Assembly (NCBI RefSeq): GCF_964355755.1
Contig: NC_092671.1
Location: 10,799,001-10,863,000 of the forward strand
Length of the DNA stretch: 64,000 nucleotides
From: Antedon mediterranea
Lineage: Eukaryota; Echinodermata; Crinoidea; Comatulida; Antedonidae
Direction of reading: 5' to 3'
Made by a program: the position numbers and the translations under genes
The notes under the pieces: generated by a model
Told to the model about the DNA's origin: nothing
Databases searched by the model: none
What the model saw: only the letters and a program-made list of their open reading frames with translations
Shown here: piece after piece, positions 10,901 to 62,686 of the stretch
Layout of the letters: each line of letters opens with the position of its first letter
Position numbering within the stretch: the stretch's first letter is position 1

Positions 10901-13900
10901 TAAATCCAATTTTCAAAACCCTTGCTGCTGAATTTTTTCATTTTGGTCATCAATGTACTGCTACAATCCTTCCCAAGTTTTTGCAACATTTCACAAAACT
11001 TCATCTGTAGTTTATTGACATCGTTCTCTGAATTAGCACTGTTATGAAAGTCAGCAATTTCAGAGAAAGTAGACGAAAATTTGCATGCAATACTGAGTTT
11101 GAAATCAACGTCTTGAAGTTCTTCTTCAGTCTCCTCCATAGAACGTCTCATAGAGGCGTATCGTCGGGAATGAAAATATTGGATGATTTTCGTGGCAATA
11201 TTGTGTAATAATTTTCTTTTGCGAAACTTTTTCTCGTATGCCGAATCAATGCTGGTTTCTTCTTTGTAAGCAGACTCCACTTCTGTTATTGAAAAAGGTT
11301 GAACAGGTATTGTAGAATGTTACGATCACTAACTTCTAACATATTTTTTTTATACATGCATACACTTATCATAATTATGTTTTGGTAAAACATTCAATTA
11401 CATTTAGATAAATTATTATATATTTCTAATATTAAAATTGTTTACAATACATTCATGCCTTTCCCGAAACAATATAAGAAAGCAAACAGAAAAATGTAAA
11501 ATTAATTTCATATAATTTACCTCTGGTATAACGGTCCAGTTTCATCTGGTCTGCTTCAGAACGTTCCTCAGCGGTTTTAAAATGTAAGCATTCAGCGTAT
11601 ATCTCTCCCAACTTTTGATTCAATTGATCAAACTCTGGTTTGAATTCTACAGCACTTAATTCGTAGTTTGATATTGTACACCCAAGACTAAGAACCATCA
11701 AGCCATATGCTCTTAATCTGATTTCGCCAAAGTATATAGATGAAATCAAATCAGATTCAGTTAGTGGTAACGCATACGAAGCAATACGCAGCAAGCCATA
11801 GAAATCCCATCCGCACACCATATTTCTAACAGACCACGTGTGTGCTATGGTATGCAGAATCATCATAATAATTGATTTGTTGACAGTTTGTATTGCACCA
11901 CCACTGGATCTAGAAAAGAAGTCGGTTAGTAGAGTTGTTTTGGTGATAATCTGTGTCCAATCAGATGACCCGTATTTCAGATTGGCATCAAGCTCAAAGA
12001 TCTCTCGCAATTGCTCCATCCATGCTGTGAGTGGGTCTATGGAAGAAGGCAAATTTAATTCATCCAGTAACTCTTTATAACCCAATGAGAGTTCCTTGAA
12101 TGCTTCCATAGCAACTTGATTTAAAACCAAGAAGTCGGTTACACTGTCATTGATTTTGTTGTGCAGAGTACTAAACGCCTGTAGTCGTGTAGTAAGGTTT
12201 GCCCCGAATAGAATTCTATGTCTAGATGATTTTGACCTTTTATCCAACTTCAATAAAGTTGCTTCTGCTTTCTGGTAATCACCTTGCATAAAGTATGTCT
12301 TGGCTAAGGTCGTTTCAATTGCATCCACAGATTCTTTGTCGACTGTTTGTAAATCTTTTTTCAATTTTCTTTCTTGATCTAAATCTAAAAATACATGTTA
12401 AAAGATTAGGATACAACTTTAGAGCTGCGTCCAATAATCATAATAAGGAAAACGATCTTAATATAAAATCAATACATCCTAGGTTTGTTATTATATATTA
12501 CAAATATCCTGGTGGATATGTTGATACACGTTTCATTTTGTAATCTAATACTGTATGCACAAATCTGTATAAATAGTTTAGTCCAATTTATAAATGCACT
12601 AAAGAGAAATCGAACAAAAGGTTTGTGTACTGTACATTCGAAATTACAAAATGCCAATCAATGGTAATCTATACATTGGGTTTCATTAAATTATTGTTAA
12701 TGTACTTTTAGCATCATGTAGGCGTATTAACGAATTAGTATTATAACCAAATTGGTCTTCATTGCAATGGAACTCAGATAAGATGGTTCAATTTCCACGG
12801 TGATTGAAAAAATACACAGTACGATGTGCTTCTACATAGTGTTCTGTGTTATAGTAGCTCACCATCGAATGAAACCGATTGAGAAGACGATGCGCCTCTT
12901 GCTTGGTTACATCACTGAACTTTTCCATCGACTCATTTTTTCTTGATTGTTTGTTCAGATCTCTTACGTCATTGCCTTTTCCCTTTCGCTCAGCATTAAT
13001 TACAATCATATCTTTAGTATCTAAGGTCAAGATTAATTGACATTGATTTTGAACATAATGTAATTTCATTTTGCATATGAAAACAACAACCTATTTAGAA
13101 CAGTATTTATTATTCAAATTAATGTACTGAACTGTGATTGTATAGTGTGAATAAATGGGTGAATGGAAAAAAACTTATTAAACAAAAATGGAAACAAATT
13201 TGAAACTCACCTGTGTTGGTGAATATACTCAACTTAATTTTAACTTCTTTTAAAAAGGATGTCTTTTAAAAATCTATATAGCCTACTTTTACACTTTTTG
13301 TAATTGTACCATATGTATATGAACTGCCAACCAACATTTCTCTCCTTTTACAAAGACAAATAAAGGTTCTTGTATTTTGTAAGATGTCAGATACACAATG
13401 TCACAAGGTCTATCTGATTAAATAAAATAATTGAATTACCATGAAGTGTTGATGTTCTTGTTGAAGTGCTTTCAGCAAAAATATCCTCTGGAATACGAAT
13501 ATATTCACATTATAACACACGTTTAAAGTTTTTTTTTTAAATTTTGTATATTATTACAGTATAATGTTCAGATGTTTATTTATTTAGTTTATTAGATCGG
13601 TTAACAATTGAAAGCAAAGATTAAATTAAAATAGTAATGAAAATAATTTAAGGTTGTGAATCTTCAAACAGACCAAACAAACATAATGCCTAATTAGTGA
13701 ATTCAAAGGCATGAACAATATCAGTGGCTGGTTCGGAATGGAAACAAATAAAATAAGCAACAAGTTATATAAAAACATACTTGTACAGCCAAAAAGAAAG
13801 CAAGTTATTATAAAGTGTTACTTATATGCTGTTTAGCTTACCTTCTTTACCACTATCTCTAAATTTCGATTTACTATGCGGCCAGTCTTGATCGAAGGTG

Positions 13901-17571: not shown

Positions 17572-19382
17572 CTAGATGAATTCGATATCAGTAATACATT
17601 TTTTCAAATCCCTTCTAAACCCCCCAAAGTTAAACAGGACTTTGTTACGAACTTCATGCGGGATACATTCCCATATTCGAGGGAAATTAACAAACAGGGA
17701 GTATTTAAATGCATTAGTTCTAGCATACATGTGTTTAAAGGTGAGGGACTCTGGATACCGAGAATTAATTGTAAGGTATTCAAATATATCAAAATCAATT
17801 AAATTATGCAAACACTTAACTACAAAAATTATACTATGAAATTTCATTCTTTGAACCATATCTGGTAAATTTAGTATCTTAAGCCTGTCAGTGAAATCGC
17901 CTTCAGCACACAATTTAGTAACCCGTCTTAATGACTTGTTAATAGCTATATTATGTTGTTTTTGATGTGGATCCCACACAGGAGCACCATATTCAATAAC
18001 AGGTCGACATAGTGCATTAAAAAGTCGCAGTAAAATTTCGGTGTCATTGAAACCTACAAACCGTTTGATAAACCCAAGCATTCTCATAGATTTCATCGAT
18101 ACATCATTAACGTGAGCAGACCATGTTAAATCACGTGAGAAGTTAATACCAAGATATTTATGTGAATTAACAGCTTCAAGGGGATTGGATTCGATTGTAT
18201 AAATAAAATGAGGGATATAATTACGTTTCCTAGTTATGTGCATGACTTTACACTTCTTTGCATTTAATTTCATTTTACTATCCTCACACCATTTGGAAAT
18301 TTTACAAAGATCCTTTTGTAAGGTAAGTGCATCATGACGACTGAATACAGGTTTATAAATTACTGTATCGTCTGCATACTGCTTCATAACAGAAGAGGTA
18401 TTTAGAGGTAGGTCATAAACAAAGAGATTAAATAGAAGCGGGCCTAACACTGATCCCTGAGGAACACCCGAGCCCACTCTATCCCAATCAGAATGCTCCT
18501 TATTAAGAACAACACGTTGGAATCTGTCACTGAGAAAGGAGTGAAGACACTTTAGGAGAGATCCACATACTCCCATGTTGTGCAGTTTCTTGATTACTAA
18601 ATCATGGGGAACACGGTCAAAGGCCTTCTCCCAATCAAGGAATATTGCATCAATTACAGGAGGTTGTCTAACATCCATTGTTTGTGACCAATCATGATAT
18701 AACGCTGAGGCCTGTGTAATACACGATCTACCTGGATAAAACCCGTGTTGCGTGGGACTTATAAATCCAAAAAATTGAAGATGAAAAAGAATGTTATCTG
18801 CTATAATACGTTCAAAAACCTTACCTATAATAGAACATAGCGATATGGGCCGATAATTATTAACATCGTTACGATTACCTGACTTAAAAATAGGAGTGAC
18901 ATTCGCGAGTTTCGAATCTTTTGGTACAAAGCCATCCGTTAAGAACTTGTTAAACATTTTGCACAACACTGGGGCAATAATTGGAGCTGACATGGATAAC
19001 ATTTTAGGTGTAATCCCGTCTGGTCCAGGGGATTTGTTGGGTTTCAATGACAATAGAGCCTCGAAAATAGTTTTTTCAGTAATATTAATGTTATTAAGGG
19101 GAACAATATCTGGGTGAACACAATTACAGATCTCATGGTTAACATTGAAATTACGATTAGGTTCGTTAAAGTTTGACGCAAAGAATGTGGAAAATGCATT
19201 TACCGCATCGATATCGGAAACCAAGGGTATACCGTTAAAAACAAAGTTTTTGACTTGTCCAGTCTTACGCCTAGTCTTAACATAACTAAAAAAACGTTTG
19301 GAGTCACCATTTACACAGGCGACACTTAATTTCCTAATATATTGTAAATGAGCTTTTTTTGTTAGGTTTCTTAAATTTTATT
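17572..19382 (-). pseudogene. Reverse transcriptase of the CR1-like element
   Basis: The open frame from 19224 to 17572 encodes 550 residues, and the same frame extends upstream to about 19382 (RKLSVACVNGDSKRFFSYV). RT landmarks with residues counted from 19224: SPGPDGITPKML (~65-75), ANVTPIFKSG (107-116), NNYRPISL (122-129), DWEKAFDRVPH (197-207), GSGVPQGSVLGPLLF (251-265) and the catalytic YADD (283-286). The thumb-like post-RT region HKYLGINFSRDLTW follows, then a C-terminal FGGFRRDLKKCI. All core residues are present. The product cannot be joined to the endonuclease because of the upstream frame change, so the copy is probably dead. Confidence 0.85.
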
Positions 19383-20914
19383 ACTAAACTTTCTATATTT
19401 GTCCATCTTACTTGGGTTATGAGGATGACGATAAGCCTCTTTTAGCATTCGTTTCTTTTTACGAGCCATGATAACCATTTCTTGAGTTATCCAAGCTGGC
19501 CTGTTTCTTTTTTTACTTTTGACTTTAGGGATACACTCGTTGATAGTGGCGAGAAAGAGGTCTTTAAAATTTTCCCACATTTCCTCACAGTCTGATTGTT
19601 CCAGGCACAGTCCCCAAGGAACCGCCCCCAACGTTGTAAAAAGATCGTCATGGTCACATTTACTATATTGATAAAAATATCTATCTACAGGTTTAACTTT
19701 ACTGCATCTAGCGTTAATATTAAAATAAACCCCAAGGTGGTCACTTGTACTGAGACCGGGATGACTTCTGAAATTACATACAATGTCAGGGTTATTGCAC
19801 AAGACCAGATCAATAATGCTACTTTTGGTGTTAGAAACACGAGTACAAAAATCAACAAATTGTATAGTATCAAGTGGAGCAATAGTTTCTTTAAATTTCT
19901 TATAAACTAAGGGACTATCAACACCGTAATCATAATTAAAATCACCAGTTAAAATTATACCACAGTACTTATGTAAAATAGATAGGATAAAATCAACGAC
20001 ATCGTGGAATTGATTGAGCCAATCGTCATTTGAACTCGGTGGCCTATAAACAGCACATATTAAAACTTAAAAATTTTGACCTCAATGTTAGTAGGAAAGT
20101 CAACAATAGAGGATTTAAATGCGTTCTTCAAAGCTAACAGAACACCACCACCGTGTCTTGAACGGTCCTTTCTGTACACAACGAATGAGTCTGGAAACAG
20201 TTCCATAGGCCTACTATCAATAGAGGAGTCCAGCCACGTTTCTGTGACAATCAAGATGTCCAATTCATCAATTGCGATACGCGCATGGAATTCTTCGATC
20301 TTATTCACCACACTTCTGGCGTTAAATAAAGCAACTTGAATAAGGTTAGTTTCAAAGATGGAAGAATCAGTTGATGTATTGCTGGATGCAAGTGACAATA
20401 TACTGTTGTTGTTCAATGAGTTGTAAAAAAATGAGTCCGATAGTTGTGGTAGGGAGCAGATGTTACACGCCCATGGATTATCTTGATAAAACACATAACT
20501 ATCGCTGCTCATAGGTATGCACTTGATATGAAATATGTGATGACATTCACAGCAAATCAGACATTTTTGATTGCGTCTCGTCGTTTTAGCGCAAGATTCA
20601 CATGTATTCTTCGTACTATTACCGTTTCCAATATGCTGGCTCTCACTAACCAACAAACATAGGTTAAAAGTCGAATAATGATTGGCGTAATATCTCACAG
20701 GCCTACTTATATATCGTTTTCTTGTGGTGTTATTAATGCTAGCACATGTATGCAAAAAAAGAGAACATGACTCACCGACACGGATGTTATAATGAACATT
20801 TTCGTTATGATAGCTGAGTTGACGAACCAGACAATCAAATGAACCTGGTTGAAATATGATTGATCTCAGAAATAATGTGCAGAGTAATGTCATCAAACAA
20901 CTAAATAGAGCCAT
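19371..20914 (-). pseudogene. PHD finger and endonuclease region of the CR1-like element, frameshifted
   Basis: The frame 20914-20060 (284 residues) starts with a hydrophobic segment. A PHD-type finger at residues ~105-153 has CESC, then CLICCECHHIFHIKC, then WACNIC. The start of an endonuclease domain follows (VALFNARSVVNKIEEF, LDILIVTETWLDSSI, YRKDRSRHGGGVLLAL). Near 20065 a one-base change ends this frame. The endonuclease continues in another frame with ICAVYRPPSS, GIILTGDFNYD and LSTSDHLGV (conserved SDH) through 19371. PHD fingers in this position are known in CR1/L2-group elements. Confidence 0.8.
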
Positions 20915-20940
20915 TATGTTGTTAAATAAGTCAATTCAAA

Positions 20941-22019: not shown

Positions 22020-23560
22020 TTCTAAGCAAGAAAAAAAAATCTTGTTTTAAGAAAAAATTCTTAAAATAAGTATTTTTTTTCTTGTCAAGATTTAAAATTA
22101 CTTAAAACAAGAAATAATTTTCTAGAAAAGACACATTTTCTTAAATTAAGTTTTGCAATATTCTTGAAAATGCTTATTACAAGAAATATTTTACTTAAAA
22201 TAAGAAGTCAATATCATTCTCTTCTTATTAAGAATAGTTTTGCTTAAAACAAGATTTGAAAATACTTAATTTGAAAAGTATTTTACTTAAAATAAGAAAT
22301 CTATATTATATTTATCCCTATCAAGAATAATTTTTCTTAAATCAAGATTGATGAATTATAAAAATTACTTAAAACAATAAATATTTTTCTAGGTAAGACA
22401 AAGTTTCTTAAATTAGGTTTCGCAATAGTCTTGAAAATACTTGTTTTGAGAAATATTTTACTTAAAATAAGAAGTCAATTTCACACTACCCTTATCAAGA
22501 TTATTTTTACTTGAATCAAGATTCGCAATATTCTTGAAAATGCTTATTACAAGAAATATTTTACTTAAAATAAGAAGTCAATATCATTCTCTTCTTATTA
22601 AGAATAGTTTTGCTTAAAACAAGATTTGAAAATACTTAATTTGAAAAGTATTTTACTTAAAATAAGAAATCAATATTATATTTATCCCTATCAAGAATAA
22701 TTTTTCTTAAATCAAGATTGATGAATTCTTAAAATTACTTAAAACAATAAATATTTTTCTAGGTAAGACAAAGTTTCTTAAATTAGGTTTCGCAATATTC
22801 TTAAAAACACTTATTTTGAGAAATGTTTTACTTAAAATAAGAAGTCAATATCATACTATCTTATCAAGACTATTTTTGCTTAAATTGAGATTCGCAATAT
22901 TTTAAAAAATACTTATTTTGAGAAATGTTTTACTTAAAATAAGAAGACAATATCATACTATCTTATCAAGACTATTTTTACTTGAATCAAGATTCGCAAT
23001 ATTCTTAAAAATACTTATTTCGAGAAATGTTTTACTTAAAATAAGAAGTCAATATCATACTATCTTATCAAGACTATTTTTGCTTAAATTGAGATTCGCA
23101 ATATTTTTAAAATACTTATTTTGAAAAATGTTTTACTTAAAATAAGAAGTCAATATCATACTATCCTATCAAGACTATTTTTGCTTGAATTCAGATTCGC
23201 AATATTCTGATTTTGAGAAATGTTTTACTTAAAATAAGAAGTCAATATCATACTATCTTATCAAGACTATTTTTACTTGAATCAAGATTCGCAATATTCT
23301 TTAAAATACTTATTTTGAGAAATGTTTTACTTAAAATAAGAAGTCAATATCATACTATCTTATCAAGACTATTTTTGCTTAAATTGAGATTCGCAATATT
23401 TTTAAAAATACTTATTTTGAGAAATGTTTTACTTAAGATAAGAAGTCAATATCATACTATATCCTATCAAGACTATTTTTGCTTGAATTGAAGTCAATTC
23501 TATTTTAATATTCTTAAAAATACTTATTTTGAGAAATGTTTTACTTAAAATAGATTGTCA
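22020..23560. repeat. Left satellite array
   Basis: The inner part repeats about every 102 bases from 22820 to 23530, with the word GAAATGTTTTACTTAAAATA recurring at about 22819, 22921, 23023, 23214, 23316 and onwards, each followed by a GTCAATATCATACTAT segment. The outer part has a longer ~360-bp duplication (22157 against 22517). Most of the array consists of CTTAAAATAAG-type palindromes. The open frames here (22918-23124, 23213-23491) follow from repeat periodicity. Confidence 0.8.
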
Positions 23561-23564
23561 ATAT

Positions 23565-24132
23565 CCTTATATTCACACAACGGTAGAGCAGTTAGCACTT
23601 CAGTTTCAACTGATGAAAGAATCTGGGTAATCAAACTGTTTGTGCTTTGAATAATCGATTGCACTGCAACCTAAAGAAAATAATATTGATTTAATATTTT
23701 TTATATTCAAGTTTTAATATGTTTAAAAACTAAGTTGTGCTTTAGTTGGAGAGCTATGCAGCCTAACAAAAAAAATGTTATTTGTAACAATGAAATTGGT
23801 CACAAAAAAAATGCAACATAAACTTAGAGTGTATAATGCCTAGGCCTAGGCCTAGTACCCAAGTCCTATAGTTACTATAGCTAATAGTCCTGTATAATAA
23901 CAGTACCAGCAGGGCCTAGGAAATAGACGTATTTCTCTAATAAAAAATAGTTTAAAATGCATAATTGTTGTAATTTTAAAGCAAAATGGCTTACCTGTGG
24001 AATCTTGTTTCTCTCCTTTAATTTTAGTAGAAGGAAATCAGCATTTTTTATACTATTATCTGCTTGTTCATCCTCTACAGTAGTTAGTAGGCCTTCTTGC
24101 TGAGCATCAACAAGATCATTAATATTAAACAA
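23565..24132 (-). pseudogene. Two-exon coding relic inside the satellite-capped element
   Basis: The first exon (about 24132-24000) reads FNINDLVDAQQEGLL, then KNADFLLLKLKERNKIPQ, and ends at a good donor (CAG/GTAAGC). After an acceptor (TTTCTTTAG at about 23672) the frame continues VAVQSIIQSTNSLITQILSS and VETEVLTALPL. The join is in frame and hydrophobic/helical in character. An acidic Ser/Asp-rich stretch in another frame upstream (24140-24240) looks like the same protein, frameshifted. I believe this is a transposon-borne protein but cannot name its family. Confidence 0.5.
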
Positions 24133-27169: not shown

Positions 27170-29100
27170 TCTTGAATTTATTTGTTTAAGTAAAATATTA
27201 CTTAAAATGAGTATTCATTTATCGTTCTTAAAATAAATTTTTAATGATTTATATTTTATAGAATTCTTGTTTCAAGCAATTTTTTTCCCAATATAAGTAA
27301 GAATTTACGAATTTTAATTTGATAGAATTCTTGTTTCAAGCAATACTTTTCTTAAAATAAGTAAACATTTACTGGTTTTTATTTGATAGACTTCTTGTTT
27401 ACTTATTTAAAAAAAAGTTTTGCTTGAAACAAGAATTCTACAAATAAAAATCGGAATATTCTTACTTATTTTAAGAAATATATTGCTTGAAACAAGAAAA
27501 CTAAAAATATAAATCGGAATATTCTTACTTATTTTAAGAAAAATATTGCTTAAAACAAGAATTCTAAAAAATACAAACCGGAATATTCTTACATATTTTA
27601 AGAAAAATATTGCTTGAAACAAGAATTCTACAAATAAAAATCGGAATATTCTTACTTATTTTAAGAAATATATTGCTTGAAACAAGAATTCAAAAAATAC
27701 AAATCGGAATATTCTTACTTATTTTAAGAAAAATATTGCTTGAAACAAGAATTCAAAAAATACAAATCGGAATATTCTTACTTATTTTAAGAAAAATATT
27801 GCTTGAAACAAGAATTCAAAAAATACAAATCGGAATATTCTTACTTATTTTAAGAAATATATTGCTTGAAACAAGAATTCAAAAAATACAAATCGGAATA
27901 TTCTTACTTATTTTAAGAAAAATATTGCTTGAAACAAGAATTCAAAAAATACAAATCGGAATATTCTTACTTATTTTAAGAAAAATATTGCTTGAAACAA
28001 GAATTCAAAAAATACAAATCGGAATATTCTTACTTATTTTAAGAAATATATTGCTTGAAGCAAGAATATTAAAATTAAAAATCGGAATATTCTTACTTAT
28101 TTTAAGAAAAATATTGCTTAAAACAAGAATTCTAAAAAATACAAATCGGAATATTCTTACTTATTTTAAGAAAAATATTGCTTGAAACAAGAATTCTACA
28201 AATAAAAATCGGCATATTCTTACTTATTTTAAGAAATATTTTGCTTGAAACAAGAATTCAAAAAATACAAATCGGAATATTCTTACTTATTTTAAGAAAA
28301 AAATTGCTTGAAACAAGAATTCAAAAAATACAAATCGGAATATTCTTTCTTATTTTAAGAAAAATATTGCTTGAAACAAGAATTCAAAAAATACAAATCG
28401 GAATATTCTTACTTATTTTAAGAAAAATATTGCTTGAAACAAGAATTCAAAAAATAAAAATCGGAATATTCTTACTTATTTTAAGAAATATCTTGCTTGA
28501 AACAAGAATTCAAAAAAATACAAATCGGAATATTCTTACTTATTTTAAGAAATATATTGCTTGAAACAAGAATTCTATAAAATACAAATCGGAATATTCT
28601 TACTTATTTTAAGAAATATCTTGCTTGAAACAAGAATTCAAAAAAATACAAATCGGAATATTCTTACTTATTTTAAGAAATATATTGCTTGAAACAAGAA
28701 TTCTATAAAATACAAGTCGGAATATTCTTACTTATTTTAAGAAATATATTGCTTGAAACAAGAATTCAAAAAAATACAAATCGGAATATTCTTACTTATT
28801 TTAAGAAAAATATTGCTTGAAACAAGAATTCTATTTTAAAAAATTGATAAATTGTTACTTATTTTAAGGCAGATACTGCTTAAAACAAGAATGAAAAAAG
28901 CAATTAAATTCTTGGTAAGAATATTGTTCTTAAAGTATTATTTCTTGGTAAGAATAATTTTCTTGATAAGAATTTGTGTGATTCTTGTTAAGAATTTTAC
29001 GATTCTTGGTAAGCCAAAAAGTATTGAAATACGGACAAGTCAAAATTTACTTGTTTCAAGAAATATTTTGCTTGAAACAAGTTTTTTTTTTCTTAAAACA
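27170..29100. repeat. Right satellite array with 63-bp units
   Basis: The core (about 27410-28830) is a tandem array of 63-bp units built from ATATTGCTTGAAACAAGAATT, an A-rich spacer, AATCGGAATATTC and TTACTTATTTTAAG. Because 63 is divisible by three, long open frames (27610-28185 and 28178-28564) encode a repeating LLETRIQKIQIGIFLLILRK-type peptide. These are repeat artefacts and not genes. Shorter, more diverged units occupy both edges. Confidence 0.85.
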
Positions 29101-34677: not shown

Positions 34678-36198
34678 ATGCATACACTTAAGTTTCGGAT
34701 CTTCATATGTTTTGTACTTATAGTACTAGCATCAACACTATGTTTTCAAGGTAGGGTATGATTAAACAAAGGGATTAGTCGGCCCTATGTTCTTATTGGT
34801 TTTTGTATTGGTTTTAGGCTTATTTCATAATATATCATTATTAAAGTAAATCCAAGACTAGATATTATACACACTGTTTCCGTCACAGTAAACGGAAATA
34901 TACTATGAGTTGACGCATTACAGACTTATTGACGTAATGTACATTCTCGTGGACTAATCTGTTATTTGCAATATTTTACTCCAGCTTAAAAATTAGACTT
35001 TATTGATGAAATTGGAATTAACACTGATCAAAATCTTCATTATATTTGTGTATTTTGCATCGGCTATTTCTTTTTATTATAATGTGTTTTTTTTGTTTCA
35101 GTTGGAAATATTCACACTAGTTACCCAATAATGCGTCAACCAACACCGAATACAGGAATGTTTGGAAATATTACCCTACTTGCCAACATCGAGAGGGCGT
35201 TAAAACATATATGGACAGTTAAGCAAAGTAAAAAACCAGACTATAAAAGTTTTGGCACCAAGCCAAATGTTGTCATCATCTTATCTTGTAAAAGGTCTGG
35301 AACTTCTTTCTTCGGAGAACTGTTCAATCAGAATCCAGACGTGTTCTATGTGTTTGAGCCTCTAATGTATTTCACATATATGGCTTTAAACCATGAGATA
35401 TCAAACGACAAATTTGATACGTTGTCATTAAAAATGATAGAAAGTATTTCAACTTGTGATATCCACCATATTCCTTACTTATCGAAGTGGTGGGAAAAGG
35501 GTTACAATCGTCGTTTATCTATCAATTTCAAAGGTTTATCAATGGAATCTGGAATTAAAAAGATTAGTGAGCGTTGCAATGTGTCCAAACTAATAGCCAT
35601 AAAAACTATCCGCGTGGCTGATATTGCGTTGTTGCGTGATTTTATTGAAAGCGAAAAAGCAAATGTAAAAGTGTTACATCTAGTTCGTGATCCTAGAGCC
35701 GTTATGAATTCCAGGTGGAAATTAAAAGAACCGAATTCAGATTTTCTTCGAAAACGTAGAAATGGAAATGCAACTGACGAGGTTGTCGATTTGTGTCAAC
35801 ATACTACAAGAAATATAGAATACGTTTCGTCGAAACCTGATTGGCTTAGAGGAAAGTACAAACTACTAAGATACGAGGACGTGGCTAGTTTTCCAATTGA
35901 AAGCTCTATTGAGATATATAATTTTTTAGGTATTGATTACCCATCTGCTTTAACTGATTGGTTAAATAACAATACCAACAAACAGAGTGGTAATCCATAT
36001 GGTACATCTAGGGTCTCTTATCAAATCATTAACAATTGGAGAAAAGAGATTGCTTTAAATAAATTAAATGAGATACAAGAAAAATGTAAACATACGATGA
36101 CGTCATTAGGTTATGAAGTATTAAATGGCGAAAAACAACTTTTGGACATAGACGGCAAAATAGCGTATAAAGCATTTACCAAACCAGAATTCACTTAA
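34678..36198 (+). CDS. Carbohydrate sulfotransferase (Gal/GalNAc/GlcNAc 6-O type)
   Basis: Exon 1 (34678-34750) encodes MHTLKFRIFICFVLIVLAST, a short cytoplasmic tail plus signal-anchor helix. It joins in phase 1 to exon 2 (35102-36198), giving 389 residues, a usual length for this family. The enzyme transfers sulfate from PAPS to sugar hydroxyls in the Golgi lumen. The 5'-phosphosulfate-binding loop is CKRSGTSFFGELF (residues ~87-99) and the 3'-phosphate-binding motif is LVRDPRAVMNSR (~218-229). A later LLRYEDVASFP matches the conserved RYEDL region. The type II topology fits. The exact sugar substrate cannot be read from the sequence. A MITE-like segment starts at the stop codon, so the 3' UTR is at least partly transposon-derived. 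Confidence 0.88.
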
Positions 36199-48781: not shown

Positions 48782-50755
48782 TTACGGACTATCTTTCCTA
48801 CTAAAAACACTTACAAAATGCTTTTCTACGACAACCATTTTGTCATCATTAGTACAGGTGATGCCCAGAGGATATTCTAACCCAGTTATTACACACATGA
48901 CGTATTGGTATGTGCCATCCGCAGAGTTATTCAACATATGAACAACTTTCATCGTCCAGTCTAAAATGTACAAGTTATCATGTTTGTCAAAACATATGCC
49001 TGTAAGGTCCATGTCTGTATTTTCTGTCTTTGTGGACGGTATTGTTACCTCATGGATGTCCTGGCCATCTTCATTAATAAGCTTCACTTTGCTCTGCGTG
49101 TGCAAACTTACGTTAAATGCTACCGCTAGTTGGTGTTTTGAGTTTATAGCAATGCTCCATGGGCTAGGACATGTGATCTTCCAAATTAAAGACCCATCTG
49201 CATAGTAAAAACGTAGCGTATCGTTCTGCCAGTTTCCAATCGCTACTCTGCCATCCCGACCAACAGCAAGACAGGGACCAGTTGATTCATTTGACGCTAC
49301 AAATGCGAGTTTATTAAGAAGGTTGCCTTTCATGTTATATGACGTCATATCGGTACATTCTTCTTGAACGATCAGTATTCGTCCATCAGGAGTAATTGCA
49401 ACGTCCAAAGGGCCTTGTTTAGCATTAAGTGGTTCTTTCGCCACATTGATTGTCAGTTTAAGTTCTCCGGTTGCAGTATACATCTGTACCTTACAATTAT
49501 TTGTATCTGTAATCACGATATCACCATGTTTGGTTACTGCTGCCCGCCGGGCATATCCGAATTCTTTAAGACCTGTGCCTTGTTTCCCAAATTTTGAAAT
49601 ACAAGAAAGCGATGTCGTAAAGAATGAATCACCCCTAGAACTGCTTCCGCTTCTGTTTAGACCAGATCCTTTCTTTTCTAGCCTAGGGCGTGGAGCCGGC
49701 TTTGGCTTGTCACTAGACAACACTCCAACATCTTTGGGAAGCTTTAAGTTATCATCAATTTTACAATCTGTGAACAACCTTGACGCAGTGCTTTCAATTT
49801 CTGTTCGAATACTTACTACGTCACGATCGCTGCCTAAATTTAAAATTTCATTCAAAAAGTCGACATTTGTTTGTAAGAACTTTAATTTATTTTCAATTAA
49901 AGATTTTTTATTTTCTATTTTACCAAACTTTTTATCCACCTGACTTTCAATCCTAGTTAACTGTTTTGCTTCCTCTTGTTTGATTAATTTTATTTTCTCT
50001 TCACTAGAACTAACGACGTCTGATTTCATTTTACTGGCTTTCTGTGATATGCTGTTTTCAATTGTTTGAATTTCGTCAATTGCATCATGGAAACATCCTT
50101 TCTTCTTCTTTAGGTCATTCATTTTATCTATAACTTTATTTCGACATTTTGACGCTGCATCTCGGACATCCACATAATTATGCACTGGTCTAGGATGATC
50201 AACAACCGTGCATTCACGGCAAATAGTAACGTCACAACTTTGGCAAAAGTACCTTTGATTTTCTTCTTCGTGACGTGGGCATTTGCTTACTTTACGTGAT
50301 TTTTTGTAAAGTGTTCGTAAACTCGTGGTTTTTAGTTCCTCCAGTGAGTTCACGACATGTTCTTGAAACATCTTGATTCTCTGATGAGATTCCACACATT
50401 TTGCGCAGAGAAACTCGTCACATTCAAAACATCGGCCAGTTGCAACTTCACGGGAATCACACAGCGTACAGACAATAGGTTCGCTTGGATTCTTGATCAA
50501 TTGATGGATTTTATTAAAATTCTGCAGATTTAAGATCAAAGAATTCACCTTTAAAGCGGCTAATCCATCTTTATCTAAAACGGTTTTAAAATCACATTTT
50601 GGACAAGCGATCCTACTTCTCATCGGTTCAATGTGCTTAGTAAGGCAATCTTTACAGAAGCTATGTAGACAATGTAACACTCGTGGATTACTATAGTTCT
50701 TAAGACAAACCGAGCACTCAAGAAATTCTTCTATCAAATGTAGTTTTGCAGCCAT
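48782..50755 (-). CDS. TRIM-NHL protein (RING, two B-boxes, coiled coil, NHL propeller)
   Basis: A single uninterrupted frame encodes 657 residues starting MAAKLHLIEEFLECSVCL. RING finger at ~14-54 (C14, C17, C29, H31, C34, C37, then ACPKC). B-box 1 at ~95-124 (CTLC...CFECDEFLCAKC..SH). B-box 2 at ~158-192 (CPRHEEE...YFCQSCDVTICRECTVVDH). Coiled coil at ~200-320. A linker rich in Pro and Ser (KPAPRPR, SGSSSRG) takes the position where related proteins may have a filamin domain. NHL repeats from ~385 to the end (FGKQGTGLKEFGYARRAAVT, GPLDVAITPDGRILIV, LTGICFDKHDNLYILD, YPLGITCTNDDKMVVV). It is expected to be an E3 ubiquitin ligase with a protein- or RNA-binding propeller, of the TRIM2/3/71-like class. 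Lack of introns suggests retroposition or an intronless lineage. The exact orthologue is undecided. Confidence 0.9.
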   Translation of the reverse strand: MAAKLHLIEEFLECSVCLKNYSNPRVLHCLHSFCKDCLTKHIEPMRSRIACPKCDFKTVLDKDGLAALKVNSLILNLQNFNKIHQLIKNPSEPIVCTLCDSREVATGRCFECDEFLCAKCVESHQRIKMFQEHVVNSLEELKTTSLRTLYKKSRKVSKCPRHEEENQRYFCQSCDVTICRECTVVDHPRPVHNYVDVRDAASKCRNKVIDKMNDLKKKKGCFHDAIDEIQTIENSISQKASKMKSDVVSSSEEKIKLIKQEEAKQLTRIESQVDKKFGKIENKKSLIENKLKFLQTNVDFLNEILNLGSDRDVVSIRTEIESTASRLFTDCKIDDNLKLPKDVGVLSSDKPKPAPRPRLEKKGSGLNRSGSSSRGDSFFTTSLSCISKFGKQGTGLKEFGYARRAAVTKHGDIVITDTNNCKVQMYTATGELKLTINVAKEPLNAKQGPLDVAITPDGRILIVQEECTDMTSYNMKGNLLNKLAFVASNESTGPCLAVGRDGRVAIGNWQNDTLRFYYADGSLIWKITCPSPWSIAINSKHQLAVAFNVSLHTQSKVKLINEDGQDIHEVTIPSTKTENTDMDLTGICFDKHDNLYILDWTMKVVHMLNNSADGTYQYVMCVITGLEYPLGITCTNDDKMVVVEKHFVSVFSRKDSP

Positions 50756-51269
50756 GTTTCTCTGCTACTAAAATCACATATAAAGGTTCTCAAAATCAGC
50801 AACGAACAAATAAAAATTGTTAATATGTCCTCTGTTTAAAAACATTCTCCATTCTCGTAAATGTCCGCACACTAATTTTATAGCAAGCCCATCATTGTTT
50901 CATTTAATACAATACACTTAATGTGTTGCTGCGTTTTGAATGAGTAATACAACGTAGCGTATAGTTCTTCCTCATCGGATGCTACGTGGAAGTCTAATTT
51001 AAAACTTCCGCCATTGATGTCACTCGAGTTTGTTTGTCGTTTGAGGTGCCAGAAATACATACATAGATGTTGTATATTGTATTGCGTACGTCTTTGCCAG
51101 ATCACGATAAAACTAACCTAATTATAATTGTAATGAGTTAATTTGAATAATAGTGCGGTTTATTAGTAACGCTTAACGTGAATTATCGTTGAAAAAGAGA
51201 CCCGATAGCAAAGAATCGTTGTTATTTATGCCTCTGTTTTGTATACTATAAGTTATTTATTATCTTAGT
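50756..51269. other. Upstream flank of the TRIM gene
   Basis: No supported coding region (the minus-strand open frame 50878-51105 has no recognised similarity) and no clear core promoter. Confidence 0.3.
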
Positions 51270-55420: not shown

Positions 55421-58225
55421 TCAATTCTGCTGGAGAGCCGAGTATTTATTCTGAGTTTCTATCTGATTATTTTTTTTGGACGGGTCTTCAGCTGAACCGC
55501 GGCTGCTTCCTTTCGTAACTGTTTCAAAATCTCGTTCACTTTCTTTTGTTCTGGAAAATAATACAATTAAACATTTTTTTAAAACTAGTAATGTCATGTC
55601 GGATCAATTCAATGTAAACAGGTCACAAGTATATGGTAGACTAGATACGCCTATACCCTCCTAGGGAATGTCATTTTTTTAAATATTATTTTGGTATAAA
55701 AATATAATACAAAAAGCAGAAAAAGTTTTGTGATCATATGAATACAAAATATCAGATTTGTATTATTTACTGTCAATCTCTTAAAAATCGCTTATAAAAA
55801 ATATGAAAAAAAAAATTAGAAGCTTTTTGGTGCAGGTTTGAATTTTTGGCATTACTATTACAAGTATATTGACACTTACTTATATTTTGCAATGTCTATA
55901 CTAGCAGATAAAGATGGAAAGTCCGATTCACTGGTAATTTCTGGAGCTGTCATTTTTTTTCTTCTTCTCAGTCTGTCATTAGAAGGTGTCATTGATTGTT
56001 CTGTCACAGTAGCTCCAGCTCTTTTTGCTGGTGGGACATACTTGTTGGACTTGGGAGCCTCTGGTTCCGGTGCTGGTGGTGGTTGGGCGACCGGTTCTGG
56101 TGCAGGTTTTTCAACTACTTCAGCTACATTGCAAAGAAACAGAAATTACATTCTAACTGTTTTGGCGCTAATACACTTATGTACCTACAGTAGGTCGATG
56201 GGTTAAAGTAGGTTCAGATTTTACCACTGAATAATATTACCTGAATCTAAAACTAAAAATTAACTCAGTGGGTGTGAAAATGCATAAGTGATGTTACATG
56301 TTGTCTCTCATATAAAATATCAGGCTCCACGATTAAAAAGAAATGACTCTAATGCCTCCTTATCACTAAGGTAAGATAAGATAGTAATTGATTGTATGCC
56401 AAATATATATAATATGTTTGTAACCACACTAACCCCACTTATTTTGTGATTCAATTGTGATTGAATGTTGCAGTAAATAAAGACAGGCTGTTAACAATTT
56501 CAAACTATAGTCAAGTGAATCTAGTGATATTTAAAGGTATAAACACATCACAAATTCACTTGAACAATGCTCCATTTAATCTTAATACAAGAATTATTTA
56601 CTTTCAAGATATGATGAACGTTAAATATCTATTTCATAAGACCAGTTAAGATTGGGTAAAGTGGATTAAATAGAATTTGTAGCTTTGTTTCCTTGTATTT
56701 ATTATTAGTTTATATGTATATATATTTTTTCTTTTCAGATTTCATGTTATATATCTTGGGGTGGGTCAAACTTCAGAGTCTTTTTGACTTATATGACTCT
56801 CCCCCCCACATGATTACTTACACTATTTATTAACCTGTATGTTGTTATATTGTGGAAATAATTGAAATTGAAAAATTAGAGAGCATATTTTATTATTATT
56901 ACCTGCAGATGATTCTGTTACTTGCTGTTTATTCCAAGGACCTGATGTACCATCAGATTTTACAAGCTCTCCATTTTCATCAAATTCATCACCTTCTTGA
57001 ATTTGTTCATCAGCATCGTTTCCTGTTCTGTAAGTGTACGTACAATAATAATAATGTTAGGAATTAACAGTTGTTTATCCGAAATTAAGGTATTTGTATT
57101 TGTAAATAAGAGTTATTTATTAATTGTAAGAAATTTGACCCGTTTTATAACAATAAAAAAAGATAAAACAGATTTTATTCAACCTGTACTTGACTGATTA
57201 GCTACCTTTCATTTTCATGATGCGGCACTATACTACATGCATATTTAGTCAAATAGTAATTCTGTGCATTCCCAGAAACATATTCATGATCATGCATATA
57301 GTAGAATTACTGTTGGACTCAATAGCTGGATAGTTTCTTGCGGCATTGTGAAAACAACAGATCGGTATTCAGAGAATTTAGTAAGAAAAGAAAAAAGTAA
57401 TCAACGAATCACTACTGTACCCAATTTGTAATGATTGTATCCTAAGTCCGCTGTAGTCTTTGGTAGATGGGTCATCAAAATCTTTCCATTCATCATCTCC
57501 CTAAAAAAAATGCAGGGAAACATGTTAATTATGAAAAAAGAGGAAAAATAGAGCTAGGCAGTCGTATCACTGTTCGAGTTTAATCGCAAACACTAATATA
57601 AAAATTAATATAAAAAAAGTGTTTAGTTGTTGGAATTTTTAGTGGTGGTCTGTGCTTGTTGTATTTGGCCTAGGCCTAGAACCCATATAATACTTTAAAT
57701 AGTTAATACTAAAATAGATGCCAGGGCAGAAATAAAAAGTAAAACAAGCTTCTTTCTAGGCTTACTAGGTAGTATACTGTCTAGTCTGGGCTAGGCCTAA
57801 CCTGCCTCATAATCAACACATTAGCGGCTGGCTCGACTCTGCTCGCCTGCCTAAAAAAGTTTTATTTGGGCCTAGGTAGGCTAGGCCCTGGCTAGCTAGG
57901 TAGCCGAGGCCTAAAATAAATAAGTATTGTTAATAACGGAAGGTCGAAGGAAGAGGAAATATTAGCTTACTTGTGGAATTTCATTTGCTGGCTTTGTTAC
58001 AATATCGTCGCCAGTTTCATCAGTCACTACTGGAAAAACTTGGTTCTGTTTCTTCTCCTTCTTTTCTTTTTTCTCACCATCTGCTGCACTGCTGGCAGTC
58101 GTGCCTGTCGAGAGGGTTTTCGCGATTTGGTCCGAGGTAGTAAATTTACTTTTATTAGCCTTAGATTTCGACCTTTTACTCTTGTCTTTTTTAGCAAAAA
58201 AGTCTTCAACTGATTTATCGGTCAT
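55421..58225 (-). CDS. CDV3: CDV3 homologue
   Basis: Five exons: 57971-58225, 57421-57500, 56903-57027, 55880-56123, 55421-55550. Phases 0, 2, 1, 2 all match across junctions, giving 277 residues. The start MTDKSVEDFFAKKDKSKR fits the family N-terminus (SLDNFFAKRDKKKK-like), preferred over an in-frame ATG 30 bases upstream that would precede it. Later exons carry GDDEWKDFDDPSTKDYSGLR, SGPWNKQQ, KYVPPAKR and PEITSESDFPSLS, all in the order known for CDV3. The last exon ends NKYSALQQN. The protein is hydrophilic, Lys-rich at the start and Pro/Glu-rich in the middle, without membrane segments; CDV3 is a cytoplasmic protein of poorly understood function. The identification is firm. Confidence 0.9.
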
Positions 58226-59830
58226 ATTTAATGATATAATTTGTTCATAAAACAAAAGAAAATTATTTTAAATACTAGATTTGACACATTTCCTGATGAC
58301 AAACAACGATCTTCCTCGGGAAAAATGTGGCGAGTTGACCGGCGGTCTGCTTAGATTGTTTTTACAAATAGCGAAACTAAGCGGACCACCAACAACAGTA
58401 ACAAAAATATAGCTGATTTTAAAGATTAGTGCATTGCAAATAATTTGTTTAGATGTAATAATACATATGATTTTAAAAATATAACACAGAATTTGTAATA
58501 AAAAAAGCCAAAATTGTATTTGATCATTTGTTGTCTGTGATTTATATACATTGATGTCGTCACGTCAGTTCGCAAATTTCATTATGTAAGTACTTAGTTT
58601 AAGCCTAGTGCATTTTGCCTATGTGTATTTAAGAAATTCAATTGTACCATTGAATAACACAATACAGCCTTATGCTAAATGTGTTTATTGTATTAAATTA
58701 AAATATTGTTTTAACTTTGTTACTTAATAATAGAAAAAACTGATCTGATTTATTTCACTAACGTTAAGGTAAATAAGATTATACAATCACTATAATCAAA
58801 ATGGAATATTCCAATGACCTGGCCTATCGCGAATAAATCTGAATAATTTAGGGGATTCCCCGATCAAAACCAAAACATTAATTTTAGTAGTTAAGTTCTA
58901 AATGAAGAAAGAAGAAATAAAAATTAATAACCTTTTAACAAATGGAATCTTTCCTAGATTGATAGTGCACTGAAGACCGGATAGACGTTATCAAGGTAGG
59001 TATAGGGATTTTCATGCATAATACTAATTATATTCTACAGCCTGCTGCAGTAAATAATGACACTATACAATACAACGAAGGGAGAGGGCTTTTTTTATGC
59101 ATTTTCATGGCGGGTTCTGCTCTTCTTGTGGCCCACTCAGTAATTTGTTCAATTGGTCATATAACATTATAACTGATTATTAACTGATTCCAAGATGTGA
59201 CAGTTGTCGATTTTTATCATTATCCGGGTGTTAATTTTATATATTGAATATTATACTAGGCCTAGGCCTAATTGAAGCATGCAGGGAATTGAACAATAGG
59301 CTCCCTGTTTAAAGGATATAAGACAGAGCGGGGTTTTCCCGCACGGACAGGTGAATTAAATTATTATATTTCGTCACATCTTGATACATAGTATATAAAA
59401 CAATTTGTTTTTCAGCAGAGAGACAAGAAGAAATCTTAATCAAGTTATGAAACTAAAGTAGGCCTACCATAAGACTACAATACTGTGCCTTGACATAATG
59501 ACATGAATGTATAGGCCTACAGTTAGGGTGGAGGGGGCGGTTTGGCAACATGTTTCCTTCTTTCTAGGATTTTTATCAGATAATCTACGACTACTCTTGT
59601 AACATGACCACAGTGCTGATTTTGCCATTTTCCCTTTAACTTTATAGGCACACGGATGGCTTGAATTGTCACTATTGCCCTTTTTGCCAGTGATAGGCCT
59701 ACCACTAGCAAAAAAAAGCAGTATTCATGGTTATAGCATTGCACAGTGCATAATCCCATCAAGTGTACAAATCAAATCACCTGACATATTATTATTTATA
59801 AACTAATATTAACCCCACCTTTTTCAACAG
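58226..59830. other. Intergenic or 5' intronic region of the GTPase gene
   Basis: No coding exon found. A TATA-like AAGGATATAAGACAG (59312-59326) followed by a kappaB-like GGGGTTTTCC (59330-59339) may mark the start of the downstream gene. A conspicuous pyrimidine-rich acceptor closes the region (TTTTTCAACAG, ending 59830). Confidence 0.35.
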
Positions 59831-62686
59831 ATTTATGAGATAATCCCTACAAAAAACGCAAGCATGCGTGACCGTCACAGAAAAATAAAAAATGGGGATT
59901 TTTTTGGAAAACGACGTATAATAGTTCTTGGAGAAACTGGCGTTGGAAAAACGTCTCTGATAAATAATCTAACAGATTATTTGGACGACTGTGACACCGT
60001 TCCAACCGATAGTATAGGAATTACACATTGTTACCTGACAAGTGACTCTTCGAGGTTATCACTTCCATCATGTCTTCACCTAGATATATCTCCTGAACTT
60101 GAATCAGAAAGTGGACGAATTTCACCTACGATATCTCAAAAAGTTGAATCAGAAATTGAACAAAGTTTACCAACAATATCCCCTGAACCAGAAATTGGAA
60201 AATGTATACAACATACAATATCTCCTGAAAGTGAATCAGAAATTTCACGCCGTACATCTACGATATCCCACAAAGTTCAATCAGAAATTTTACACAGTCG
60301 GGCACACAGTACCTCTACGTATCCTGATGTTGAATCAGAAGTTGAAAAAGGTAAACCTACAATATCTATGAGTCAAGTCAAATCAGACATTGAAAAAAGT
60401 ACAGATACATGTATTCCGCCTCCAACGGTATCATCATACCAAACTACATATTTGGAAGATGCTCAAGATACCTGTATATCAGTTTTTCTTGCAACAGTTT
60501 ATCTATTAATTGTTGAACTTCCATATTATGGTCTTGGGGCATTGTTTTTGTCAGTATTATGCACGTTTCAAATAATCAAACTTATTCTCACTGGTAAATT
60601 GTCTTTCCAGTCAGTCCCTCGGGTTTTTGATGTTACGCTGTTTCTAACTTTGATTACTCTATTAATTGGATTAATGCGACTAGACATTTCTGATGCGACT
60701 GAATTAAATCGAAAGTTTGCTTTAAGATGTCTTATGTTTCTTGCATGTATCACTGCCACTAAATTCAAATGTCGTATTGGAATTATTTTAGCTCTGAACT
60801 TCTTCCAATTTCCAGAAGGTTGTATTCACCATGCCACTTCAGAACTCATTTCATGGGATGTGAAGTATAAACACGTGATATTTATTTTTATTATTTATTT
60901 GTCGATAGGCTTACTCATGCTATTGGATTGCTTTACACTTCTTACTAGAAATAATTGCACGGTGGTTGCTGGAATTCTTTTAGCTGTTCTGGTTTTAGTT
61001 TCATATTTGATATATCCATCTACGTCGTTTGTTTTCATCGTAACAAGCATTACTATACATCTTATTCCATGTTGTTACGGTACAAATTTGCATACTGTAG
61101 TTGGTCCAAAATTACAATGTATCGCTATTATAACGTGTGTCATCTTAACATGCGTATTTGGTTTAGAAAGTGTTTCACCGAATTCTACATCTTCAGTTTA
61201 TATTGAGGTTATCTTAAATTGTGGTTTGATTGTAGTGCTTTGGCGGTGTTCAAGTATACAAAAAATGATTGAACATAAACAGGTTGAAAATACTTCTAGT
61301 TTTTTTAAGGAAGGGTACAAAACTACAGTAGCGCCACTAACTATTTCAATTCAGTCGGTCATTTCGGCCAAAACTAGTGAGATAAATGTTGATTATTTTT
61401 CACTTAAGTTATTGGAGTTTGCTGGAACCGTTCAGTTTGAAAACCTTTACCACGAGTTCATCACACATGCGGACGTTTACATATATGTTTTCAAATTAAA
61501 ACGAAACATTGCTCCTGAAACGCAAGGGAATATCTTATTAAAGCGATTGCATGCCTTGAAAAGTAAAGGAATTCTTAAATCTTCATTTCTACTACTTGTT
61601 GGCACACATAAATCGGATGTCACGCAGACTTACATTGATTCTCTGCTGAAACAAATTGACATGGAAGAATGGCGTAAACTATGTTGTAGAAACAATGATG
61701 AGCAGATGCTTTATACTGTGGATAACGATAAAAAAGATAACAAACAGTTTGATGACATTGTCCACGGTGTTTGGGAAAGATTGATTTCTCAAGAACGAGC
61801 ACGAGACATCCCAATGGAATATGTCAATTTACAGGGAAAGACTATTCACTTAAAAGAAAAACATGATGGAAAAATACACATTCCACAAACACTGTATGAA
61901 CAATCGAGTACTGACATTTCAACATCGAGTTCAGAAATTGACGATACAGACAATTTGTTAGAGGTTATAGTTCGTCTGTTTACAGATAGAATTGATAAAG
62001 TTGAATGGATTAAAGAAGGTAAACTGCGTGACATCTGCAATTCCACATCGAATAACTTAGTTAACGTTTTACAAGAATTGGATTTGGTTTCTTTCAAAGA
62101 TAGGCCTACAGATAAACTCTGTTTGGTACCTTCATTGCTGCCAACATGTCAAAGTTGTTCGATTAGACGCCAGACGAACGAGGACGCTGTGTTCTATGTT
62201 GACTTTCCCATGTTTCATGGAGCAGTCTTTTATCTGATTGTACTTTATATTTTAGAAAAATATAACAACATACAAGTGCATCATGTTTGCAAGACCACTG
62301 CAGATCTCCGAATCGCAAATGAACTTGAGCTTTTATTGGGTATGATTCAAGTCACAGAAACGCACAGTGTAATCTGTATTTCAATACGGACATTATCAAA
62401 TAGTCACCATTATATGAACATGTTGCATAATATACTAACTCTTGTCAACACAACATGCGAACAGAAGTTTAGAAATTTGAAATATAGTTTTGGTTTGAAG
62501 TGTCCTGAGGCTAAGTCACAAGACCCAAGTAAAGCTGGTTTTCATATCTTAACGTTGGCATCACGTGATACAAAGTTACCGGACGATTTGAATGCAACCA
62601 TTAGTGTTGATTGTTGTAACAAGACGCACGTATGGTCTGCGAACGACAACAAGGTAAATAAGTTTAATGATACAGAAGTAATTTAA
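59831..62686 (+). CDS. Roc-COR-like GTPase with a multi-pass membrane insertion
   Basis: The open frame from the ATG at 59864 encodes 940 residues. The same frame is open back to an acceptor at 59830, so an upstream exon is possible. Residues 17-58: P-loop GETGVGKTS (23-31) and a switch-I-like TVPTDSIGITH. Residues ~75-180: six degenerate ~20-residue repeats around ISPE.ESE and VESEIE. Residues ~204-465: 8-10 hydrophobic helices. Then the Roc fold resumes: FSLKLLEFAG (G3-like, 512-521), FITHADVYIYVFKL, and LLLVGTHKSD (G4-like, 576-585). A COR-like region follows (~690-900) with LVNVLQELDLVSF, LCLVPSLLP, and FYVDFPMFHGAVFYLIVLYI. Two usual residues differ: Glu replaces the G3 Asp and THKSD replaces NKxD. 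It ends TAA 62684-62686; an in-frame AAG/GTAAAT donor leaves an extra 3' exon possible. It is probably a membrane-anchored ROCO-type signalling protein. The function is not known. Confidence 0.75.
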   Translation: MYEIIPTKNASMRDRHRKIKNGDFFGKRRIIVLGETGVGKTSLINNLTDYLDDCDTVPTDSIGITHCYLTSDSSRLSLPSCLHLDISPELESESGRISPTISQKVESEIEQSLPTISPEPEIGKCIQHTISPESESEISRRTSTISHKVQSEILHSRAHSTSTYPDVESEVEKGKPTISMSQVKSDIEKSTDTCIPPPTVSSYQTTYLEDAQDTCISVFLATVYLLIVELPYYGLGALFLSVLCTFQIIKLILTGKLSFQSVPRVFDVTLFLTLITLLIGLMRLDISDATELNRKFALRCLMFLACITATKFKCRIGIILALNFFQFPEGCIHHATSELISWDVKYKHVIFIFIIYLSIGLLMLLDCFTLLTRNNCTVVAGILLAVLVLVSYLIYPSTSFVFIVTSITIHLIPCCYGTNLHTVVGPKLQCIAIITCVILTCVFGLESVSPNSTSSVYIEVILNCGLIVVLWRCSSIQKMIEHKQVENTSSFFKEGYKTTVAPLTISIQSVISAKTSEINVDYFSLKLLEFAGTVQFENLYHEFITHADVYIYVFKLKRNIAPETQGNILLKRLHALKSKGILKSSFLLLVGTHKSDVTQTYIDSLLKQIDMEEWRKLCCRNNDEQMLYTVDNDKKDNKQFDDIVHGVWERLISQERARDIPMEYVNLQGKTIHLKEKHDGKIHIPQTLYEQSSTDISTSSSEIDDTDNLLEVIVRLFTDRIDKVEWIKEGKLRDICNSTSNNLVNVLQELDLVSFKDRPTDKLCLVPSLLPTCQSCSIRRQTNEDAVFYVDFPMFHGAVFYLIVLYILEKYNNIQVHHVCKTTADLRIANELELLLGMIQVTETHSVICISIRTLSNSHHYMNMLHNILTLVNTTCEQKFRNLKYSFGLKCPEAKSQDPSKAGFHILTLASRDTKLPDDLNATISVDCCNKTHVWSANDNKVNKFNDTEVI

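Follow-up and report, generated by a model that had tools for sequence, protein, structure and literature searches.

Membrane helices and a G domain occur together in one chain in FeoB, in SRP receptor beta and in the GIMAP-type GTPases, where the helices precede or follow the G domain and are not known to occur inside it. An interruption of a Roc domain has been described among the ROCO proteins, a group that includes LRRK2, MFHAS1 and the bacterial CtRoco (PF08477); in these proteins the Roc domain normally spans about 180 residues without a break and is followed directly by COR, and leucine-rich repeats or similar units upstream are common, though not universal. According to the excerpted text of a study of brown-algal ROCO genes, their ROC domains range from 77 to 467 amino acids, and in one gene a non-conserved sequence is inserted inside the ROC domain (PMC11378527). 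In the excerpts of this and a further study of the brown-algal genes, the intra-ROC inserts are not described as membrane helices, leucine-rich repeats are placed at the N-terminus, and similarity to membrane proteins is found on the C-terminal side (PMC11378527; PMC4104024). That a G domain can be opened in a nearby place came from cpRAS, a circularly permuted RAS domain that occurs in a sea urchin and in a lancelet, the chain of which is broken between beta-2 and beta-3. The excerpted report states that its authors think the GTPase function is retained, and that others argued a break in the beta-2/beta-3 turn should impair folding (PMC2430557).

Here, we have analysed a 64,000-nucleotide stretch of the genome of the crinoid Antedon mediterranea (the window) and describe a single open frame in which two complementary Roc/Ras matches flank a hydrophobic insert (Table 1). 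The arrangement is real and unusual. Like the ROCO proteins, the encoded protein has a Roc match above the Pfam cut-off and a C-terminal region after the G domain; unlike them, its Roc is split by ~420 residues that include predicted membrane helices, no leucine-rich repeats were found, the Pfam COR profile does not match, and ExxG stands at G3. It shares with the brown-algal gene an insert inside ROC, as far as that gene is described in the excerpt (PMC11378527). It resembles cpRAS, in which the G domain is opened at the beta-2/beta-3 turn, near the break found here, and differs from it in the order of the motifs, which the excerpt gives as G3-G4-G5-G1-G2 (PMC2430557) and which is the normal one here, namely G1, G2, insert, G3 and G4. 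In FeoB, SRP receptor beta and the GIMAP-type GTPases, unlike here, the helices are known only from outside the G domain.

Table 1. Features of the split-Roc gene and its upstream neighbours, in window coordinates.
Feature	Residues	Position	Strand	Basis
GGACT gene		53.29-53.89 kb	+
CDV3 gene, 5' neighbour		55500..58255	-	Pfam CDV3; outer limits presumed from similarity
Last, perhaps only, coding exon (probable)		59831..62686	+	3' acceptor 59829-59830, frame to stop TAA
940-aa ORF, probable full-length protein		59864..62686	+	ATG at 59864; A at -3
N-terminal G-domain part (putative)	18-58	59915..60037	+	Pfam Roc profile, motifs
P-loop/G1, GETGVGKT	23-30	59930-59953	+	motif
Switch-I-like, PTDSIGI	from 47	60002-60022	+	motif
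Ser/Glu-rich repeat tract	61-200	60044..60463	+	TRF, composition, repeat positions
Membrane region (predicted)	203-462	60470..61249	+	Kyte-Doolittle, Hessa-type energies, positive-inside topology search
C-terminal G-domain part (putative)	480-640	61301..61783	+	Pfam Ras and Roc profiles, motifs
G3-like, LLEFAGT	from 516	61409-61429	+	motif
G4, GTHKSD	from 580	61601-61618	+	motif
G5-like, YTVDNDK		61712-61732	+	motif
C-terminal region	641-940	61784..62683	+	presumed COR resemblance
LVPSLLP		62123-62143	+	presumed COR resemblance

The initial annotation had read all parts of this protein as lying in one frame without stops, and this is borne out. The frame is open from 59813 to 62683 with no stop inside, and the chance that its 940 codons stay open, computed from the background stop frequency of the window (6.7% per codon), is ~10^-28, so that an open frame by chance is excluded. 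The bases 5' of 59831 are pyrimidine-rich and end in ...AACAG, as in a splice acceptor. Splice sites were scored with a generic matrix and ranked against the GT and AG sites of the window itself; the acceptor at 59830 falls at the 99.4th percentile among the AG sites of the plus strand, and the frame is therefore probably the last, perhaps the only, coding exon. A coding model trained on five frames of the window, three of which have no Pfam family above the cut-off, serves as a rough guide: among the three forward frames, frame 0 looked most like coding sequence, both over its whole length and in each of five segments (6/6). The membrane segment scored slightly below zero (-0.052 per codon) yet above the other two forward frames, and its odd amino acid make-up may be the cause.

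The split of the GTPase domain is evident from the profile matches. Against the whole protein, the Pfam Roc profile scores 31.9 bits, above its cut-off of 27 for a Roc-type G domain, and does so in two separate stretches, the best of which covers residues 18-42 (profile 1-25). Pfam Ras scores 28.5 bits (cut-off 21.6), with its best stretch at residues 480-632 (profile 19-156). The Roc domain is thus not contiguous: residues ~480-633 match the remainder of Roc and Ras, and more than 400 residues separate them from residues 18-42. Either half alone scores below the curated cut-offs. Residues 1-60 reach 20.8 bits with Roc (profile 1-28) and match 35 Pfam families, with RsgA slightly above Roc among the 25 listed; because so many families match, the N-terminal half taken alone reads as a generic P-loop. 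Residues 480-680 score 21.0 bits with Ras and 18.0 bits with Roc (profile 25-92, at residues 482-549), and match two of the 24,736 Pfam families at E up to 10, both small GTPases, a search that is not exhaustive at this threshold since the HMMER filters discard most matches above ~0.1. As profile positions 1-28 and 25-92 of Roc fit together, the matches support the suggestion that both outer segments belong to a single Roc/Ras-type G domain, to which they contribute complementary parts.

Joining the two segments in silico gave consistent results. The joins made with 10 cut pairs were compared against Pfam, and 9/10 gave one Roc stretch covering profile positions 1-92 at 35.4-42.5 bits; the remaining join (60/480) was matched in two stretches, at 36.5 bits. 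When the 52/492 join was compared with PDB sequences, the Roc domains of LRRK2 came out best (E 1.7e-4) and chains of Ypt6, Di-Ras and Rab proteins came next, whereas with the uncut protein LRRK2 Roc was found at E 0.28, behind a match to Ebony at 0.11.

That the N-terminal half is so generic would also be expected if the frame were made of two unrelated pieces, in which a P-loop remnant has been joined, by chance fusion or misassembly, to a membrane protein with a degenerate small-GTPase-like tail, and the halves never meet. We regard this as quite improbable, as the profile positions of the two halves complement each other and rejoin to one domain, and no stop interrupts the frame. Synonymous codon usage points the same way, with a correlation of 0.83 between insert and flanks, though that between insert and plain background is as high (0.89).

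The motifs of the G domain that had been listed for this frame, a P-loop, a switch-I-like segment, LLEFAG and THKSD, are all present in one frame and in their places. Residues 18-58 hold beta-1, the P-loop, alpha-1 and the switch-I-like PTDSIGI. Set against the usual forms of G1, G3, G4 and G5, G1 and G4 are canonical, and YTVDNDK lies at the place expected for G5. At G3, DxxG is replaced by ExxG, with Thr as the next residue; the substitution of Glu for Asp noted initially is therefore correct, EFAG occupying residues 518-521.

Where the G domain is interrupted can be bounded from the joins. Segments that resemble switch I/beta-2 are found on both sides of the insert, PTDSIGITHCYL (from residue 47) and KTTVAPLTISIQSV (from about residue 486), the C-side segment spanning about residues 480-500. 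Joins that keep the first segment (60/505, 39.6 bits), the second (44/480, 40.1 bits) or a mix of the two (52/492, 42.5 bits) score alike with Roc, and the break is therefore only bounded, between residues ~45 and ~510. The insert would fall before beta-3, within either switch I or beta-2, with the exact break uncertain. According to the excerpt of a review of ROCO proteins, the G2 loop shows large variability in length and composition (PMC6337361). cpRAS provides a precedent, as the opening of its G domain at the beta-2/beta-3 turn, described in the excerpted report, supports the reading of a split domain (PMC2430557).

The Glu at G3 and the Thr after it, together with two competing switch-I-like segments that the joins do not separate, could also be explained by a membrane-anchored pseudo-GTPase. 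The halves would then pack without cycling, and the protein would act as a scaffold or decoy, in which the C-terminal region does the work. We consider this explanation unlikely: the P-loop and G4 motifs are canonical, and a Roc match above the curated cut-off would not be expected after long drift.

The insert begins with the Ser/Glu-rich tract that had been noted from the translation, which contains 21% Ser and 12% Glu over residues 61-200. It is built of repeats of about 13-15 amino acids that often end in (P/S)TIS, and within it the DNA itself forms a tandem repeat of 39 bp (13 codons) with 2.1 copies at 60145-60229 (TRF). Since part of the tract is a DNA tandem repeat, the length of this putative tether may vary between alleles or species.

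Hydrophobic helices between the two halves of the G domain, 8-10 in the first reading, do fill residues 203-462. Eight are predicted, at residues 203-220, 224-241, 254-273, 284-301, 337-354, 367-384, 417-434 and 445-462, with a possible extra helix at 387-404. The number of helices, eight or nine with ten as a runner-up, depends on the scale. With Hessa-type energies, eight helices with both termini inside were best in 3/3 weights, with a small lead over the next model, eight against seven helices (0.29, 0.84 and 0.42 units); with Kyte-Doolittle, nine helices with the N-terminus outside and the C-terminus inside were best in 3/3 weights. The C-terminal side is inside in 6/6 of the best models. 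The proposal that the two halves of the G domain meet on the same side of the membrane is thus favoured, by small margins, on the Hessa scale and not on that of Kyte-Doolittle, and the nine-helix topology, which would put them on opposite sides, favours the reading of two unrelated pieces. The protein has nine glycosylation sequons. N364 and N440 lie in outside loops of the eight-helix model, but near helix ends, and others such as N35 and N476 fall in parts that this model puts inside; with sequons on both sides, they decide no topology. No Pfam family matches the insert above the cut-off; the best one for the membrane region, DUF7144, reaches E 0.025 and stays below its own cut-off. Compared with PDB sequences at E up to 10, the membrane region matched only a monobody (E 0.75), and no credible relative.

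If the insert were spliced out, the GTPase would not be split in the mature protein. The tract and membrane parts comprise ~410 codons, for which the chance of staying open is ~10^-12, and the insert is therefore coding sequence whatever the splicing. We scored 8 donors (codons 40-85) against 13 acceptors (codons 455-520), and 33 of the 104 pairs were in frame; in none of these did donor and acceptor both exceed the 75th percentile. Because no in-frame pair has two good sites, the sequence does not suggest a clean splice that removes the insert, and the objection that the initial annotation had raised against itself finds no clean splice in its favour. There are nonetheless two good sites, the donor at 60042 (95th percentile), which has four in-frame acceptors, and the acceptor at 61309 (95th percentile), and the insert could conceivably be an exitron or an alternatively spliced segment, removed in some or most transcripts to leave an ordinary compact Roc protein, with the membrane isoform as a minor or retained-intron product. 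This explanation appears rather improbable, as all four acceptors available to the good donor are at or below the 74th percentile, the good acceptor pairs in frame only with a donor at the 12th percentile, and the long open frame argues against it.

For the C-terminal region, the segments initially called COR-like have no support from Pfam, and what is left of the claim is LVPSLLP, which we take to resemble COR. Residues 680-940 have no Pfam match at E up to 10, and the whole protein has no COR match in Pfam. The missing match is weak evidence, because a COR profile is found in only 18/111 of the brown-algal genes, as counted in the excerpted study (PMC11378527). Residues 694-752 matched an Ebony chain (6dym) with E values of 0.11 for the whole protein, 0.018 for the tail alone and 0.051 for residues 480-940, and we take this match as chance.

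The 5' neighbour of the gene encodes CDV3, which Pfam matches in two frames, one scoring 47.3 bits with its best stretch at 57420-57497 and the other 27.1 bits at 55903-56112. Its first exon is presumably near 58.2 kb, so that CDV3 apparently stands head-to-head with the split-Roc gene and is transcribed away from it. The gap from CDV3 to the acceptor is roughly 1.6 kb and therefore leaves little room for upstream exons with leucine-rich repeats. No such repeats were found in the ORF or in the three plus-strand frames of 50.9-59.9 kb, in a scan at E up to 1 that short exons could escape; these frames gave only GGACT and an overlapping AIG2_2 match below the cut-off. The protein probably starts with its P-loop domain. 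A tblastn search (E 0.1) found no further copies in the window.

The window is AT-rich, with animal-type genes such as CDV3 and TRIM and with frequent GGCCTA words. Its TRIM gene is in a single frame on the minus strand (48785-50764) and has a RING, B-boxes and an NHL repeat, and a sulfotransferase gene occupies one frame on the plus strand (35131-36195; Pfam Sulfotransfer_1, 48.5 bits). A non-LTR retrotransposon was identified by eye on the minus strand (17575-20935), where a reverse transcriptase frame of 601 amino acids is adjoined by endonuclease-like and zinc-finger-like frames, with slight overlaps, in three frames. At 27399-28899 a 63-bp unit is tandemly arrayed in 23.7 copies with 92% matches, and the AT-rich arrays at 22086-23565 look similar to it. 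Open frames of exon size, 122-314 amino acids long, lie in a row on the minus strand at 8179-12397. Those at 9332, 10393 and 11456 have a repeated domain in common (E about 1e-8, 20-23% identity), and no Pfam family scored above the cut-off in the four frames of the row that were searched (8779 and 9255 left out).

Viral contigs and prokaryote genome contigs were searched for relatives of the split-Roc protein by pattern, which reaches close relatives only. One stretch matched among the viral contigs and 48 among the prokaryote genome contigs, and none was confirmed (0 in each set); phage records held no relative, and NCBIfam gave nothing above its curated cut-offs. Structures predicted by AlphaFold2 from the single sequence were uninformative, with a mean pLDDT of 37.6 for the whole protein and of 35.3 for residues 475-940. 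Among the listed titles and abstract starts of the open-licence PMC literature, there was no G domain interrupted by membrane helices, which is not proof that none has been described.

Since a contiguous Roc and DxxG are lacking and COR is unproven, we do not claim that the protein is a member of the ROCO family proper. We argue instead, with confidence and doubt about evenly balanced, for a multi-pass membrane protein in which one Roc/Ras-type G domain is interrupted by a membrane bundle, with halves that close and are coupled to it. The repeats (~140 residues) and an eight-helix bundle would interrupt the G domain in switch I/beta-2, before beta-3, with both halves in the cytosol. A flexible tether of ~140 amino acids on the N-side and one of ~20-50 on the C-side would allow the halves to meet and the fold to close, and the domain may bind nucleotide. 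As the bundle would be attached between the two switches, movement driven by GTP could push or pull it; alternatively, the bundle could sense a ligand or lipid and control the nucleotide state. The output would pass through the C-terminal COR-like region. That the protein works like a Roc GTPase is our best guess.

More tentatively, and with doubt outweighing confidence, the protein may stand for a new class of membrane switch, in which the segment of a Roc GTPase that runs from switch I to switch II has taken up a polytopic bundle. If this is true, the bundle would be a receptor, a channel or a lipid-handling unit, and nucleotide state and bundle conformation would form one mechanical unit, taking the interswitch movement of Arf proteins to an extreme. 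G domains tolerate inserts, and the switch region is their moving part; a G domain that closes round a membrane bundle would put the limits to which this fold can be opened to a strong test. If the halves do fold together, the protein would join a membrane sensor covalently to a GTPase switch.
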